IMG/VR virus record: IMGVR_UViG_3300006802_000747
Location: 1-20,813 of that record
Length of the DNA: 20,813 nucleotides
From: a virus
Reading direction: 5' to 3' (one strand)
The first letter of the stretch is position 1. The number at the start of each line of letters is the position of its first letter. The notes below the pieces were generated by a model, which worked only from the letters and a program-made list of their open reading frames with translations, ran no database searches and was not told where the DNA came from. Both the position numbers and the translations under genes were made by a program. This document shows positions 2,095 to 8,075 of the stretch, piece by piece.

Positions 2095-2697
2095 ATGTCA
2101 GTAGATTTAAAAGTTTTAAGAGATTGGACACCTATTACGTGCTCTAAAGAAATAATTAAAGAGTCTAGATCAAAATATAATGGAAAAATTATGTTATCAG
2201 GAATCATTCAAAGGGCAAATACACTCAATCAAAATGGTAGGGTATATCCTAGAACTATACTTGAAAGAGAAATTATGAACTATCAAAAGCTTATTAGAGA
2301 AAATAGGGCATTAGGAGAATGTGATCATCCTGACTCATCTGTTATTGAACTTAAAAATGCTTCGCATATTGTAAGAGAAGCATATATGAAAGGTGATGAT
2401 GTGTATGGAAGAATTGAAATATTAGATACCCCTAGCGGAAAAATTATTCAGTCTTTAATTGAGAGCGGTGTGACCCTAGGAATATCTTCTAGAGGCGTAG
2501 GCTCTACTGTGTCAAAAGACGGTCATCAATATGTTCAAGATGATTTTCAATTAATTTGTTTTGATATGGTATCTGAACCATCAACACCAGGAGCTTTTAT
2601 GTTAAAAGAGCATAAGATTAAGAGAAGAGAATTAGATAAAATTTTTAACCAAACAGATAAAATAGATAGAATGTTTAATGAAATCTTGAGGTGGTAA
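2095..2697 (+). CDS. 21: Prohead maturation protease, T4 gp21-like
   Basis: This serine protease (T4 gp21 / peptidase U9-S80 type) cuts scaffold, core and capsid proteins inside the prohead, usually after Glu in (I/L)-x-E sites, before DNA packaging. The 200-aa protein has the family signature: the NGRVYP motif near residues 47-52, the catalytic His in GECDHPD (His78), and the nucleophile Ser in GISSRGVG (Ser131/132), followed by the conserved DMVSEPSTPGAFM near 157-169. Length is close to T4 gp21 (212 aa). A clear AAGGAG lies 7 nt before the ATG. Its stop codon overlaps the next start (TAATG). It sits before the scaffold and capsid genes that would encode its substrates. Confidence 0.95.
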   Translation: MSVDLKVLRDWTPITCSKEIIKESRSKYNGKIMLSGIIQRANTLNQNGRVYPRTILEREIMNYQKLIRENRALGECDHPDSSVIELKNASHIVREAYMKGDDVYGRIEILDTPSGKIIQSLIESGVTLGISSRGVGSTVSKDGHQYVQDDFQLICFDMVSEPSTPGAFMLKEHKIKRRELDKIFNQTDKIDRMFNEILRW

Positions 2698-3239
2698 TGA
2701 ACAACAAAACAAAAAAAGCACTAAAAGGAATTGTTAAAGAGTGTCTAATAGAAATTTTGGCAGAAGGTTTAGTAGGAAATAATCAATCAACTTTAAGTGA
2801 AAAAAGAGAACTTAAAGGAGCACTCCACGAAGCTTATGAAAAAAATGAGACTAAAAATAGAAATTTAGTTGAACGAAATATTAGTATGCCTACGCAGACA
2901 ACTTCTAGGGTGAAAGGAAACTCTGCAAAAAGATCATCTTATTTGGATAGCATAACAATGGGAATTGATAATGCTAATCAATCTTTTAGTGTAAGTGAAA
3001 AAGCTAAAAAAAGAGCAAACAAAATTACTAATGATCCGATAATGGCAGATATTTTAGCAGATACTGCAATGACAACATTACAAGAACAAAAGGAAGGATC
3101 CAGACCTTCTGGTCCTAGTATAATGTCAGGCGGTGATCAGGCTGCAAAAATTGTAGATCAACAATCACCAGAGTCTTTGTTTGGAGAAGCATCATCAAAA
3201 TGGGCTAATTTGGCGTTTGCGCCCTCAATTAGAAAATAA
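2697..3239 (+). CDS. Probable prohead core or internal protein, unknown family
   Basis: The protein is 180 aa from the ATG at 2697, which overlaps the protease stop and is preceded by GAGGTGG; an in-frame GTG at 2691 is a less likely start. The N-terminus is a basic-amphipathic helix (KKALKGIVKECLIEILAEGL) whose LAE|G at residues 21-24 fits the gp21 cleavage rule and loosely resembles the N-terminal peptide shared by several genes downstream. The rest is polar, low in hydrophobic content, and ends with a Trp-containing tail (SKWANLAFAPSIRK). There is no catalytic motif or membrane segment. Position between protease and scaffold suggests a prohead core component. The function is inferred from location only. 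Confidence 0.75.
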   Translation: MNNKTKKALKGIVKECLIEILAEGLVGNNQSTLSEKRELKGALHEAYEKNETKNRNLVERNISMPTQTTSRVKGNSAKRSSYLDSITMGIDNANQSFSVSEKAKKRANKITNDPIMADILADTAMTTLQEQKEGSRPSGPSIMSGGDQAAKIVDQQSPESLFGEASSKWANLAFAPSIRK

Positions 3240-3282
3240 TTTTTAAAAATATATTTTTACCAAATAATTATTTAAGTTAATC

Positions 3283-3287
3283 GGAGG
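3283..3287 (+). promoter_or_regulatory. Strong ribosome binding site GGAGG
   Basis: GGAGG lies 8 nt before the ATG of the 79-aa lysine-rich gene. It is the strongest Shine-Dalgarno match in this part of the window and supports a small gene that has little else to identify it. The 56-nt gap in front of this gene is otherwise very AT-rich and shows no TATAAATA promoter. Confidence 0.75.
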
Positions 3288-3295
3288 CCATCGAG

Positions 3296-3535
3296 ATGAA
3301 AAAAGTTGTTAAATTAACACCTGGGTTAATCAAAAAAATGATTAATGAAGAAAAACAAAGAATAAATAAAGAGTTAAAAGAGTCAGCACTTCAACAAAAG
3401 CAAAAATTGCTTAAAGAGTTAAGACTTTTAAAAAAACTTAAAGAGAAAGAATCAAAAGAGTCAAGAAATTTTAATGTCTTGAAAGAAATGAAAAAAGTCA
3501 TGATTAAAAGACTGTCTAAGAAGGTAGGTAAATAA
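3296..3535 (+). CDS. Small lysine-rich helical protein, candidate capsid-internal protein
   Basis: A 79-aa very basic protein (about one third Lys/Arg), predicted as continuous helix or coiled coil from the repeated Leu and Lys pattern in the middle. It opens with VKLTPGLIKKMINEE, a variant of the N-terminal peptide found on several downstream proteins; INE|E (residues 16-18) and LKE|S (about 27-29) fit the prohead protease rule. A small, basic, protease-cleavable protein is what a T4-style internal or core protein looks like, and basic peptides could neutralise packaged DNA. T4 gp67 has a similar size but is acidic at its end, so I do not equate them. A strong GGAGG precedes the start. Confidence 0.75.
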   Translation: MKKVVKLTPGLIKKMINEEKQRINKELKESALQQKQKLLKELRLLKKLKEKESKESRNFNVLKEMKKVMIKRLSKKVGK

Positions 3536-3536
3536 T

Positions 3537-4049
3537 ATGGCTGAACAAAGACATACAATTGTAAATGCAAACTTAGTTGTTCCAAAAGCAAAAGGAACAA
3601 GAAACGATGTTAATATTAAAGCAGCCTTTCCTAATTCACCTATACATTTAGGAGTAGTAACAGACGAAGAAAGAAAAAAACTATACCAAGAATTAGCGTT
3701 AGATGGAATAGTTCTTAACGGCCATGGGATTAATTCATACGACAGAGATTTTAAAGGAACAACTCAAAATCCTGTTCCAAATTTAGAAGATGTAGAAACA
3801 GGAGGCGGTGGATTACCGGCTTCACCATATGTCCCTAATTTGGCATCTCCAGGCCCAGGTAGTGTTAATGCTGCTGATCAACCAGTTTATGAAGGGGAGT
3901 TGCCAAATCAAGATTATAATGTAGAGTTTGGAACTGGGATGGGAGGTTTAGTGTCACCATCTCAAACATCCGCTGAAATCTCTAAGCAAGGGACTCTAGG
4001 TAGCTATATATCAGGCAGGTCTTATCAAGGTTCAGATGGGAAAGCATAG
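3537..4049 (+). CDS. Hypothetical protein in head-assembly block (170 aa)
   Basis: I do not recognise this family. The start is 1 nt after the stop of the previous gene, so coupling is likely; AAGG precedes it. The protein is rich in Gly, Pro, Asn and Ser, especially residues 75-165, with motifs such as GGGGLPASPYVPNLASPGPG and a C-terminal LGSYISGRSYQGSDGKA. There is no membrane segment and no Cys. Such a composition suggests an extended or flexible structural protein, for example a minor head component, but that is inference from neighbours. It overlaps the next gene by 14 nt. Confidence 0.75.
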   Translation: MAEQRHTIVNANLVVPKAKGTRNDVNIKAAFPNSPIHLGVVTDEERKKLYQELALDGIVLNGHGINSYDRDFKGTTQNPVPNLEDVETGGGGLPASPYVPNLASPGPGSVNAADQPVYEGELPNQDYNVEFGTGMGGLVSPSQTSAEISKQGTLGSYISGRSYQGSDGKA

Positions 4050-4656
4050 TAATTTATATGAAATATTTTTTGGACCTATCGGAGGTTTTAGTGCATATGA
4101 CAGTCTTAAAAATGGACATCGTGGGAGTACTCATTCTGTAGGAGACCCTCTTCAGTTAGATGCTGAATTTGAAGATGAATCAGAACTAGAAGATATTGAT
4201 GAAGCCGATATTGGGTCAAAAATAGCAATAAGCAAAGCTATTGTACCTACAGATACTGCTAGTAGAAATCCGCAAAACACATCATATGATAACATAGGTT
4301 ATGCTTATCCAATGGTTTCAGCGTTAACAGAGAAGGCCGTACACACTAATACAGCGACTGTAGGGTTAACGCCTAATTTAACTTATCGCGGTGCAAAAGG
4401 CAACAAAGTTACAAAAACTAGTTTTAATGCAAATAGCTATCCAAAAATATATAATAGCCCTAGAAAAGATATGATAGCCACGCAATACGGTACTAGTCGA
4501 TCTAATCTACCTAGACATAATGAGTTCGATGATAATGTTTGGACGCTTAATGACATGATCGATAAATACGAGCTCTCTTTGAATCGACATACAAAAAGAA
4601 TAAATAAAATAAATAAAATAATAAATGAGATAAATTTAAATTTTTATGATAGTTAA
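4036..4656 (+). CDS. Hypothetical protein in head-assembly block (206 aa)
   Basis: Unrecognised. It starts inside the preceding gene, with CAAGG 5 nt upstream of the ATG. The first third has an acidic patch (FEDESELEDIDEADIG, about residues 46-61); the middle is Thr/Asn/Tyr-rich; the end is an Asn/Ile/Lys low-complexity stretch (NKINKIINEINLN) encoded by an AATAAA-type repeated sequence. It sits directly upstream of the scaffold gene and could be a core or minor head protein. No motif supports a specific role. Confidence 0.72.
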   Translation: MGKHSNLYEIFFGPIGGFSAYDSLKNGHRGSTHSVGDPLQLDAEFEDESELEDIDEADIGSKIAISKAIVPTDTASRNPQNTSYDNIGYAYPMVSALTEKAVHTNTATVGLTPNLTYRGAKGNKVTKTSFNANSYPKIYNSPRKDMIATQYGTSRSNLPRHNEFDDNVWTLNDMIDKYELSLNRHTKRINKINKIINEINLNFYDS

Positions 4657-4680
4657 TAACTGAACAAATATTTATTTCAA

Positions 4681-4706
4681 ACGATAATGTTATCGTCTTA
4701 TATAAG
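4681..4706 (+). promoter_or_regulatory. Hairpin and adjoining palindrome before the scaffold gene
   Basis: ACGATA and TATCGT flank a 4-nt loop at 4681-4696, followed directly by the 10-bp palindrome CTTATATAAG (4697-4706), whose last three bases form the start of the AAGGAA ribosome binding site. There is no T-run, so it does not look like an intrinsic terminator. A role in controlling scaffold translation or RNA processing is possible but only inferred. Confidence 0.4.
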
Positions 4707-4714
4707 GAAAAAAT

Positions 4715-6133
4715 ATGAGCAAATTATTTGAAGAAGCAATCGCCGATGCTAAAAAACTTAAAGAAGTCGCTGAAGAAAATGCAAAAAAAGCTATTTTGGA
4801 ATCAGTAACACCGCAGATTCGTGAATTTATTGAAGAGCAGCTTCTTGAAGGCGATGATAAAATGTGCGAACAATGTGGAAAATCATTATCAGAAGGTGAT
4901 CATGATCATGATGAAGATGATAAAGAAGGCGATTTAAATGAAGAGGTTTATCTTGACGAGGGTGCATTAGCATCTTTAGTTAATTTAATTGGTGTAGATG
5001 CTTTAGATTCTCTAAATGAGTCTAAGACAAGTAAATTAAGGAATGCTAAGCGTTCATCTAAGACAAAGAAAGGAGAAAGAATGTCTAGAAAATATTATGA
5101 AGTTGATCTTAGAGCTCTTAGGGAAGCTATAGATCTTGAAGAAGAAGACTTCCAAGAAATGGAAGATGTAGGAGAAGGTGACATTGACGAAGAGCTCAGT
5201 GAGCTTTATGAAGAGTTTGCACATCTTCTTGAGCAAGATGAAGAAGAAGCCCCCGAAGAAGACGAAGGCGAAGACATGGAAGACATGGAAGACATGGAAG
5301 ACATGGAAGGTGGTGAAGGCGATATGCTTTCCCGGGATGAAGTATCTGCTGCTATTCAAGACTTAATTGACGATTTAGACTTGGATCTTGGCGCAGGCGG
5401 TGCAGATATGGCTGAACCAGGCGCAGAAGGCGAAGAAATGGAAGATGAAGAAATGGAATTTGATCTTTCAGGTATGGGTGCAGAAGGCGAAGAAGGCGAA
5501 GATCTTAATGAAGTTTTCGAAGTTGACGCACGTGTGTTACGTCAAGAAATTAATAGAATTAAAAGACTAGTCCGGGAAGGAAAAATGGATCATCACTTTG
5601 GAGGCCGCGGTGGCGGTAAAGCAGGAGTAGATGGTGCATTTGGTGGAAAAGGAAAGTCAAAAGCAGGTGTTAATGGTGCATTTGGTGGAGGAAGCTATGG
5701 AAAAGATCCTTTTGTTAATCCTCCTCAAATCAACAAACTTAACGAGGCAGTACGCCAACTGAGACGTCAAAATCGAGCTCAGACTGAGAAACTGAATAAA
5801 TACAGAGGAGCTGTTAACTCTCTCCGTGAACAGTTGGAAGATCTCAATTTATTTAATGCAAAACTTTTGTATGTCAACAAGTTGTTGCAGAACAAAAGCC
5901 TTAACGAATCACAGAAAAAGTCTGTTATCAAGGCTTTAGATGCGGCAAAATCTTTGACTGAAGCAAAATCTTTGTATAAGTCATTAACTGAAACGTTTAG
6001 TCGTGGAAGCAGAAAAACAATTTCAGAATCACGTGTTCTTGGAAGTTCTTCTCGTGCAACCACTTCTTCACAGTCAAGCGCAACATCTACTAACTCTGAG
6101 TTAGGTCGATGGCAACGTTTGGCCGGTTTATAA
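4715..6133 (+). CDS. 22: Prohead scaffold protein, T4 gp22-like, with an unusual N-terminal extension
   Basis: The scaffold forms the core around which the capsid protein assembles, and is then digested by gp21. At 472 aa it is much longer than T4 gp22 (about 269). Order: helix 1-45; a CEQC pair (51-54) followed by HDHD (63-66); a basic linker (105-121); Met123 behind an internal AAGGAG; an acidic middle with EDM repeats (187-198); two related segments, YYEVDLRALREAID (127-140) and VFEVDARVLRQEIN (267-280); a Gly-rich repeat with GAFGG twice (295-326); and a coiled-coil C-terminus with LNLFNAKLLYVNKLL (377-391), typical of gp22. Many (I/L)-x-E sites, such as LLE|G (43-46), LNE|S (100-103) and LTE|A (414-417), fit digestion by gp21. 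Position directly before gp23 matches T4. Confidence 0.88.
   Translation: MSKLFEEAIADAKKLKEVAEENAKKAILESVTPQIREFIEEQLLEGDDKMCEQCGKSLSEGDHDHDEDDKEGDLNEEVYLDEGALASLVNLIGVDALDSLNESKTSKLRNAKRSSKTKKGERMSRKYYEVDLRALREAIDLEEEDFQEMEDVGEGDIDEELSELYEEFAHLLEQDEEEAPEEDEGEDMEDMEDMEDMEGGEGDMLSRDEVSAAIQDLIDDLDLDLGAGGADMAEPGAEGEEMEDEEMEFDLSGMGAEGEEGEDLNEVFEVDARVLRQEINRIKRLVREGKMDHHFGGRGGGKAGVDGAFGGKGKSKAGVNGAFGGGSYGKDPFVNPPQINKLNEAVRQLRRQNRAQTEKLNKYRGAVNSLREQLEDLNLFNAKLLYVNKLLQNKSLNESQKKSVIKALDAAKSLTEAKSLYKSLTETFSRGSRKTISESRVLGSSSRATTSSQSSATSTNSELGRWQRLAGL
5069..5083 (+). promoter_or_regulatory. Internal ribosome binding site and in-frame start within the scaffold gene
   Basis: AAAGGAG (5069-5075) lies 5 nt before an in-frame ATG at 5081 (Met123 of the scaffold). 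This is as good as the sites in front of the genuine genes and nearly identical to that of the capsid gene. Initiation here would give a 350-residue shorter scaffold beginning MSRKYYEVDL. Such nested products are known for scaffold genes in other phages; here it is inferred from sequence. Confidence 0.55.
5270..5305 (+). repeat. Four perfect tandem copies of GAAGACATG
   Basis: The 9-bp unit GAAGACATG occurs four times without a mismatch inside the scaffold gene and encodes EDM repeats in an acidic stretch. The unit is in frame, so copy number could change without breaking the gene. Confidence 0.9.
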
Positions 6134-6170: not shown

Positions 6171-8075
6171 ATGAGTAGATCATTCACTTTAAATCAATTA
6201 ACAGAAGGTATTCGCGATCGACATGTTGGTCAAGAAGCTTCTCGTATTCAAGAAAAATGGACTCGTACTGGACTTTTAAGAGGTCTTGAGGGTCATAACC
6301 GTGAGAACATGGCACGCTTAATGGAAAACCAAGCTGCACAAGTTCTTCGCGAAGCAAACACTTTAGGATCATCAGGTGCAGATAGCGGTCAAATTGACGG
6401 TTTTTCTAACATTGCATTCCCAATTGTACGTCGTGTATTTGGTGGTTTGGTTGCTAATGAATTAGTTTCAATCCAACCTATGTCATTACCATCAGGTCTT
6501 TTGTTTTACTTAGACTATACTTATGGATCTGACGTTGGTGGTGATACATCTGCTTCTACAGGTTTGGGTACCAATGTAACTTATAATAGAGGCGACTCAA
6601 TTTACAACAACCCAGCTGGTGCTAGTGTTCGTACCGGTTCTGATGCTGTTGGTGGTCAATATGACTTAGTTGGAACTTCTTTTACTAAGATCCACAGTTC
6701 ATCTGTAACACCAACACTCTTAGCTTCTGGTGCATTTGGTGGAGCAGCTGCTCAGTCTTATACAGCTGGTAACGTATTGGTAGCTTCTGGTGCAGACGGT
6801 AAATTGTTACAATTTGACCCACAAATTACAACTGCCATTGATTCAGACGGTGAAGCTTTTACAGCTTTAGTACTTGATGCTGATACTGGTTTCTTTAACG
6901 GAATGGATACAACTGACGTTAAGTCTTTTGCTTTGCATACAAGTAACGGTAGTAGTACAAGTGGTTTGTCAGCTCCTGGTTCAACTTATCAAGGCGGTAA
7001 CAATATTCTTAATATTAGACGTCTTAATCAATTAGGAACGTTTAATACATCTACAGAAGTATTCACTCCTAACCCGTTTATTGAAGTAGGTTCTGCCAAC
7101 GCAGGTAATAACGCTGCATTACTTGTTATTTGTAAAGGTACATTAGCTGCTGGTGCAGGTGCCGGTAATTTGTTAGGCGCAACACTTTCTGGTTCGTTTG
7201 CTAAAGCTGATACAGTTGGCACAGCTGGTGGTACAGGTGGAACGTTAGTTATTCCTTCATTTGAGTCTGACTTTGATACAACTCCGGAGCCTATTATCCC
7301 TGAAATCGATATCAAGATTGAGTCTATTGCAGTAACAGCTACAACTCGTAAGTTGAGAGCTCGTTGGTCACCAGAACTCGCACAAGATCTTAATGCATAT
7401 CACTCAATGGATGCTGAAGTTGAATTGACTCAAATTCTTTCTGAGCAGATTGCATTGGAAATCGATCGTGAAATCTTGAATGACCTCTTGGTTGAAGCAC
7501 AAGGTGCTAACTTCTATTGGGATCGTCGTCCAGGTCGTTTTGTTAATAAACGTACAGGTGTTGATCAAACAAGTGCTGGTTCACTTACATCGCCTACTTT
7601 CACTGGTACAGTTCGTGAATGGTATGAGACTCTGGTTGAAACCATCATCGACGTAGCTAACGAGATTCACAGAAAGACTCTTCGTGGTTCTGCTAACTTT
7701 ATCGTGGTTTCACCTGAAGTTGCTACAATCTTCGAAGCTTCTGTACTCTACAAGCCTTCTATTAAGATTGACGGTCAAGGTCAAGCTGCTATTAGCGGAA
7801 TTGGTGCTGAGGCAATTGGTTCTCTTTCAAATCGTTTTACGGTATACAAAGACCCATACTTCCCACGCAACAAGATCTTGGTAGGTTACAAAGGTGGTTC
7901 ATATCTTGAGAGTGGATACGTCTATGCTCCATATGTTCCGTTAATCGTAACTCCAACAATCTTCGCACCAGAAGACTTCACACCACGTAAAGGTGTAATG
8001 ACCCGTTACGGTAAGAAAATGGTTCGTGCAGACTTCTACGGTACAGTAACTTGTTTAGGTATGGATGTAATCTAA
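6171..8075 (+). CDS. 23: Major capsid protein, T4 gp23-like
   Basis: The 634-aa protein builds the hexagonal lattice of the head. The N-terminal region (residues 1-61) resembles the cleaved delta domain of T4 gp23, and LRE61|A62 fits the gp21 rule at nearly the same place as T4 (after Glu65). The conserved FSNIAFPIVRRVFGGL follows, then the HK97-type fold with KLRARWSPELAQDLNAYHSM near residue 390 and EQIALEIDREILNDLL, both hallmarks of gp23. The region between about 120 and 370 is Gly/Ser/Thr/Ala-rich and longer than in T4 (521 aa total), suggesting an enlarged surface insertion domain. AGGAG lies 6 nt before the ATG. Codon use is more GC- and T-ending than its neighbours, as expected for a very highly expressed gene. 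It has its own late promoter and a terminator. Confidence 0.96.
   Translation: MSRSFTLNQLTEGIRDRHVGQEASRIQEKWTRTGLLRGLEGHNRENMARLMENQAAQVLREANTLGSSGADSGQIDGFSNIAFPIVRRVFGGLVANELVSIQPMSLPSGLLFYLDYTYGSDVGGDTSASTGLGTNVTYNRGDSIYNNPAGASVRTGSDAVGGQYDLVGTSFTKIHSSSVTPTLLASGAFGGAAAQSYTAGNVLVASGADGKLLQFDPQITTAIDSDGEAFTALVLDADTGFFNGMDTTDVKSFALHTSNGSSTSGLSAPGSTYQGGNNILNIRRLNQLGTFNTSTEVFTPNPFIEVGSANAGNNAALLVICKGTLAAGAGAGNLLGATLSGSFAKADTVGTAGGTGGTLVIPSFESDFDTTPEPIIPEIDIKIESIAVTATTRKLRARWSPELAQDLNAYHSMDAEVELTQILSEQIALEIDREILNDLLVEAQGANFYWDRRPGRFVNKRTGVDQTSAGSLTSPTFTGTVREWYETLVETIIDVANEIHRKTLRGSANFIVVSPEVATIFEASVLYKPSIKIDGQGQAAISGIGAEAIGSLSNRFTVYKDPYFPRNKILVGYKGGSYLESGYVYAPYVPLIVTPTIFAPEDFTPRKGVMTRYGKKMVRADFYGTVTCLGMDVI

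Follow-up and report, generated by a model that had tools for sequence, protein, structure and literature searches.

The scaffold gene of this virus raises the question of whether a single reading frame supplies the prohead with one scaffold protein or with two. In the window (the whole stretch of 20,813 nucleotides that was analysed) the gene stands in a T4-type head cluster formed by part of a portal gene, a prohead protease, unassigned open reading frames, the scaffold and a gp23-type capsid gene, and it contains a second, in-frame ATG directly behind a ribosome binding site. Judged from sequence comparison, the gene most likely makes a long and a short scaffold protein from one reading frame, and a probability of roughly 85% is given here to a nested in-frame pair of 472 and 350 amino acids.

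The scaffold gene and its locus

The gene occupies the position of gp22, between the gp21-type protease and gp23, with unassigned open reading frames separating it from the protease, and its product is probably the internal scaffold for head building in uncultured T4-like phages. The features of the locus are the following.

62-1255: portal protein, C-terminal part, matching profile positions 290-508 of 528
2095-2697: prohead protease, gp21-type (Pfam Peptidase_S77 at 2095-2694)
4703-4708, + strand: TAAGGA, the ribosome binding site of the gene's first start, spaced 6 nt from the ATG at 4715
4715-6133, + strand: scaffold gene at the gp22 position, long product of 472 aa
4715-4852, + strand: N-terminal helix domain, residues 1-46, long product only (helix 2-49 in the model); also kept in the related short group
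4853-5080, + strand: variable linker, residues 47-122, long product only, mostly of low confidence in the model
5069-5075, + strand: AAAGGAG, the internal ribosome binding site, spaced 5 nt from Met123 (ATG, codon 123, at 5081-5083)
5081-6133, + strand: nested frame beginning in phase at Met123, with a predicted short product of 350 aa
5093-5134, + strand: motif 1, YYEVDLRALREAID, residues 127-140, directly after the internal start, carrying L-x-E
5513-5554, + strand: motif 2, VFEVDARVLRQEIN, residues 267-280
5591-5704, + strand: Gly-rich repeats in region 293-336, three units (HHFGG..AGVDGAFGG..AGVNGAFGGG), kept among the 12 sequences of alignment A1
5723-6001, + strand: helices of the C-terminal part, residues 337-429, where conservation is highest and the prediction best; present in both products and in the related short group
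6171-8075: gp23-type major capsid protein (Pfam Gp23 at 6171-8072)

The sequence-only reading had described a protein almost twice as long as T4 gp22 with AAAGGAG 5 nt before in-frame Met123 and two related segments behind that start, and all of this is borne out: the protein has 472 residues against 269 (a ratio of 1.75), the signal and the ATG are in place, and the two segments are identical at 7 of 14 residues. The middle part (123-292) is acidic, with 68 Asp or Glu and 12 Lys or Arg among 170 residues, and the C-terminal part (337-472) is rich in Lys and Arg and holds the best predicted helices. Much of the structure model is of low confidence (mean pLDDT 61); a fold search with it gave no PDB match at E<=0.001 and two matches to uncultured-phage proteins in BFVD. 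The scaffold protein of the window had no passing match in PHROG or Pfam, weak stray PHROG matches being confined to relatives, and neither had residues 1-122 taken separately (best phrog_24029, of unknown function, E 0.026 over 7-56). In the linker, 27 residues of L001-L005 are missing in the window. The linker also carries a CxxC with a His/Asp-rich stretch (MCEQCGK..HDHDED, window 4862-4918), which within the 12 sequences of A1 is shared with L001 only.

The neighbouring gp23-type capsid protein is 634 aa long. Its matches to the 40 relatives listed highest in the phage collection fall into two pieces that span only about 54-63% of the protein and leave a long unmatched stretch between the N- and C-terminal parts. 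The nearest among the matches listed are LR756508, Immutovirus, Mel-JY01, LR756511 and RM378, at 39-48%. Far-T4 phages form a group in gp23/gp20 phylogeny according to the available part of PMC4360716.

Relatives

Two viral-contig scans, one of which contributed the best 80 of 99 relatives, gave 141 loci; adding the window and the records of three named phages (L082-L084) brings the number of sources to 145, many of the contigs being partial. Complete and unique scaffold proteins were obtained from 99 of these, the other 46 being incomplete or duplicate and uncounted. They divide into the window's long clade (56, window included), a related short group (28, with Immutovirus immuto) and 15 more distant proteins; the median length is 488 aa in the long clade (n=56) and 371 aa in the short group (n=28). 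Alignment A4 comprises the clade except for L016, L130 and L137 (53 of 56 members). The tree was built from the C-terminal part of the scaffold with 104 rows and a midpoint root only; it omits L028 and so includes 42 of the 43 complete proteins from outside the clade. The single relative found in a scan of genome contigs, L162, comes from a contig of 305 kb that was binned into the MAG Methylococcaceae bacterium TMED69, possibly a host hint or a binning error and too little for naming a host.

Conservation of the internal start

GGAG is found 5-10 nt before a homologous in-frame ATG in 56 of the 56 unique full-length clade members, and in 53 of them it is extended to AGGAG. Among eight later loci with a complete-looking scaffold reading frame the signal is present in six (L147, L148, L150, L152, L161 and L162), L157 has only a weaker AAAGGAAG at the internal start, and L153, which is of the short type, has no signal. 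Relatives keeping the internal start have 33-73% protein identity to the window scaffold, which suggests that two forms of scaffold are needed. The position of the internal Met ranges from codon 114 to 259 across the clade.

What is conserved at this place is the nucleotide signal and not the encoded peptide. The GGAG is read in the phase xxG GAG in 49 genes and GGA GAx in 7, with spacings of 5, 6 or 9, and the peptides encoded at the signal differ accordingly (KGE, QEN, KEN, EEN, KET, QES and others). Glu codons at positions -4 and -3 are GAG in 53 of 53 cases (49 genes), compared with 1084 of 4059 (27%) overall; counted by column, GAG makes up 89% at the signal and does not exceed 65% in any of the 18 other conserved Glu columns. 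The Met is kept although the neighbouring residues vary, and the second residue is Ser in 32 of the 56. The calculated pairing with the anti-Shine-Dalgarno sequence is stronger for the internal signal than for the gene's own start in 54 of 55 clade genes (L016 left out), with medians of -8.7 and -6.3 kcal/mol, and the median for the gp23 starts (n=52) is likewise -8.7 kcal/mol, equal to the internal scaffold start. The mRNA at the internal start is less folded than the gene average in 55 of 56 genes, but this is not an independent proof because the stretch preceding the site is also poorer in G+C (32%) than the gene (41%).

Such a signal is rare elsewhere in the same sequences. Among the remaining 654 in-frame ATGs of the 56 genes only 4 have GGAG at 5-10 nt, and none has AGGAG; for in-frame internal ATGs in other long reading frames of the same loci the count is 23 of 1889, and three other conserved Met columns gave 0/24, 0/35 and 0/39. 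Given the protein and the codon usage, the chance of a GGAG is 0.15 on average; when the codons of 15 representatives below 60% nucleotide identity were shuffled under the same protein, 3.3 were expected with GGAG and 15 were observed. The initial choice of the internal Met relied on GGAG; the nearest Met before the motif, chosen blind to the signal, is the same Met in 51 of the 52 genes with the motif (4 of the 56 lack it by the pattern used), and since this blind check and the Met columns agree, the circularity is answered. Products of these chances are not true P values, as the 56 sequences are related; nevertheless the internal start goes beyond chance, being kept in 56 of 56 relatives. 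These comparisons support selection on the internal site as a start site, and very probably it is in use.

A second case was considered at gp21, where AGGAG or GGAG stands before a Met near codon 169, and was rejected: it follows from a Pro-Gly-Ala stretch, in which 9 of 30 use GGA.

Two probable products from one gene

Ribosomes starting at codon 1 would make a prohead scaffold of 472 aa, and independent initiation at codon 123, behind the strong Shine-Dalgarno sequence, would give a scaffold of 350 aa that lacks the N-terminal helix and the linker and retains the rest: acidic middle, Gly-rich repeats and C-terminal helices. Both forms would assemble together in the prohead core through their common C-terminal helices and would later be cleaved by the gp21-type protease. 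The short form, whose start signal equals that of the capsid gene in strength, may constitute the bulk, and the long form a minority whose N-terminal helix adds a function such as contact with the portal or the shell; this division of labour is conceivable, with the odds somewhat against it. Still more tentative, and on balance unlikely, is a lineage-wide core of two isoforms in which the N-terminal helix of the minority long form anchors or starts the core and the majority short form fills it, the ratio being fixed by the unequal ribosome sites and perhaps helping to set head size, with an AT-rich element adding control in part of the clade.

The AT-rich element before the internal start

In many members (L007, L023, L103, L093, L120, L131 and others) ATAAATAAT or a near form lies 31-40 nt before the internal ATG, an element which we take to resemble the T4 late promoter word. 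The short product might also come from its own mRNA, from a late promoter ATAAATAAT inside the gene. In favour of such a promoter, every exact copy of ATAAATAAT within the genes called at the 56 loci (326 kb of coding DNA) lies 20-60 nt before the internal start (18 of 18), the Ile codon in the element is ATA in 26 of 26 cases against 269 of 1123 overall, and TATAAATA with at most one mismatch occurs near the internal start in 23 of 56 genes against 5.1% of AT-matched windows. However, TATAAATA is not the word found upstream of genes in these loci, where it shows no enrichment (5, against 10.7 in shuffles) and the strand-specific upstream words are ATAATTAA and ATATTTAA; the window itself, L001-L005 and L085 lack the element; and an AT-rich stretch could equally serve as an unstructured landing place for ribosomes. 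In the window TATAAATA occurs at chance level (4 observed, 3.2 expected). As a late promoter, TATAAATA is suggestive near the internal start but was rejected, and transcription of a separate mRNA from inside the gene is considered unlikely.

A possible leader peptide on the short product

The short product could instead be a separately targeted internal head protein, its first 15 or so residues being a cleavable capsid-targeting leader, and not the bulk scaffold. In T4, gp21 cleaves after L/I-x-E, as stated in the accessible portion of PMC9026906. L/I-x-E motifs are present in the scaffold, and in 53 of the 56 clade members the short product has one inside the stretch of residues 9-20, compared with 43% of like windows, which would suit a leader. 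Yet L/I-x-E is common in this acidic protein, the cleavage motif is borrowed from T4 gp21 and may not be that of this clade, and the short product retains the whole conserved core. We regard a targeted head protein as a distinctly improbable substitute for a short form of the scaffold.

Origin of the internal start

The sequence-only reading had explained the internal start by an upstream core gene that fused with gp22 near codon 122, the old start site remaining active. The internal start fares well, its conservation in all 56 clade members supporting selection, whereas the fusion does not. A conserved N-terminal domain followed by a variable linker and then by the start signal is an arrangement that a fusion could leave behind. 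Against it, a profile search of all + strand reading frames of at least 40 aa found the scaffold spread over two reading frames in none of the 145 sources, among which incomplete contigs are frequent, and in the related short group the same N-terminal domain sits on the same core, in one gene, without a conserved signal (hhalign 98.3% between the N-terminal slices of the two groups and 100% for the C-terminal core). Because the domain and the core are also joined in a group without the conserved start, the N-terminal part probably predates the internal start, and fusion near codon 122 is very improbable. A fusion predating both groups, or an insertion of the middle part alone, is possible.

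The proposed duplication in the acidic region holds for a short motif and not for a larger region. With motif 1 fixed and the rest of the protein shuffled, none of 2000 shuffles reached the score of motif 1 with motif 2, and the profiles of the two motifs matched in hhalign at 44.6% (E 2e-4), where seven control slices gave at most 7.1%. On the other side, when residues 120-290 were freely compared with themselves, 29 of 200 shuffled sequences yielded an equally good pair. The duplication is therefore read as a motif of about 15 residues that occurs twice, perhaps a binding or cleavage site. Further copies of motif 1 were sought by PSSM and were mostly no better than shuffles: the best other match resembled motif 2 in no more than 8 of 54 members, and in only 2 of 54 did it score above every one of the 200 shuffles.

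On the tree the label of the internal start needs two changes. Inside the clade a single row is unlabelled, that of L075 on a long branch, in which AAAGGAAG precedes a Met at the corresponding position. The scaffolds of L075 (3228-5357) and L157 have 709 and 692 aa, a Pro/Ala-rich linker and AAAGGAAG before Met codon 305 or 303, respectively, and these sites are perhaps weaker versions of the internal start. The distribution supports an internal start that arose about once and was retained across the clade. Outside the clade, no conserved internal start recurs group-wide among the 28 members of the related short group, in which GGAG precedes 12 of 493 in-frame internal ATGs and three near-identical members have a common GGAG site at codon 100. 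In Immutovirus (L082) the in-frame Met146, which precedes that phage's own acidic motif, has AAGGAG 8 nt in front of it; its relatives show no counterpart at a like place, and the site is possibly an independent internal start. The Immutovirus scaffold (4092-5333) is annotated as 'DNA polymerase phi-like protein', which is likely a low-complexity misannotation. In L016 the N-terminal domain is lost and the internal start kept, with a UvdE gene directly upstream (1670-2590; scaffold 2627-4012); on this 6.5-kb contig the loss may be real or a misassembly.

In some authors' view, internal Shine-Dalgarno-like words slow elongation. That the AGGAG is such a pause signal at a domain boundary, and not a start, fits its place between the linker and the next helix predicted by the model, but is hardly credible, since a pause requires no ATG and an in-frame ATG lies 5-10 nt downstream in 56 of 56 genes, with a Met kept amid varying neighbours, Ser mostly following it and the mRNA little folded.

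Comparison with known systems

The scaffold gene is a positional counterpart of gp22, which it resembles in lying between gp21 and gp23, in its acidic middle and in being mostly helical where the structure model is confident. Its profile shows no homology to gp22: hhalign gave 2.8% with the T4-like and 1.1% with the cyanophage gp22 proteins, and 1.3% in another comparison, whereas the T4-like and cyanophage profiles match each other at 99.8%. A further difference is that the internal start signal was found in none of 25 unique T4-like and 11 unique cyanophage gp22 genes. In the cyanophage set the gp22 of Synechococcus phage S-ShM2 (L166, 2804-3934), which has AAAGGAG before Met18, was read from this Met as its real start, the annotated one probably lying 17 codons upstream of it. 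The composition of the T4 core is covered in the available part of PMC9958956.

Two starts are also known from other genes. T4 gene 21 is a T4-type head gene with an annotated internal start that gives a smaller protein (NC_000866), but it encodes the protease and the internal start is near its 5' end. Phage endolysins can consist of two isoforms that arise through internal translation start sites and act together (PMC9430671, in the portion available); there one gene gives two in-frame products from two starts, although these are lysis enzymes, another kind of protein. Immutovirus immuto and the short group share the N-terminal domain and the C-terminal core with the window scaffold and differ in being shorter and without the conserved internal start. 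The available part of PMC3185693 makes no mention of nesting, and none of the matches listed describes an internal start for a scaffold of the gp22 type. Ordinary gene calling would report the long product alone. Silent changes in the internal signal should abolish one form only and would offer a simple handle on the two forms.

In phage lambda the scaffold Nu3 is made from an in-frame internal start within the longer gene C and has a common stop codon with it. This protease-scaffold gene with its nested scaffold was reportedly described by Shaw and Murialdo in 1980. Their work is reference 43 of PMC8508860, in the part of that paper available. The gene of the window, as known from its sequence alone, is similar in the nested in-frame start of a scaffold and the common stop codon, a likeness in nesting and not one drawn from sequence comparison. 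It differs in that the long product of lambda carries the protease, whereas here no protease is found in the long product, which adds only a helix and a linker, and the protease has a separate gene at 2095-2697. In its predicted nesting the scaffold gene is like lambda C/Nu3, and it stands outside that family.
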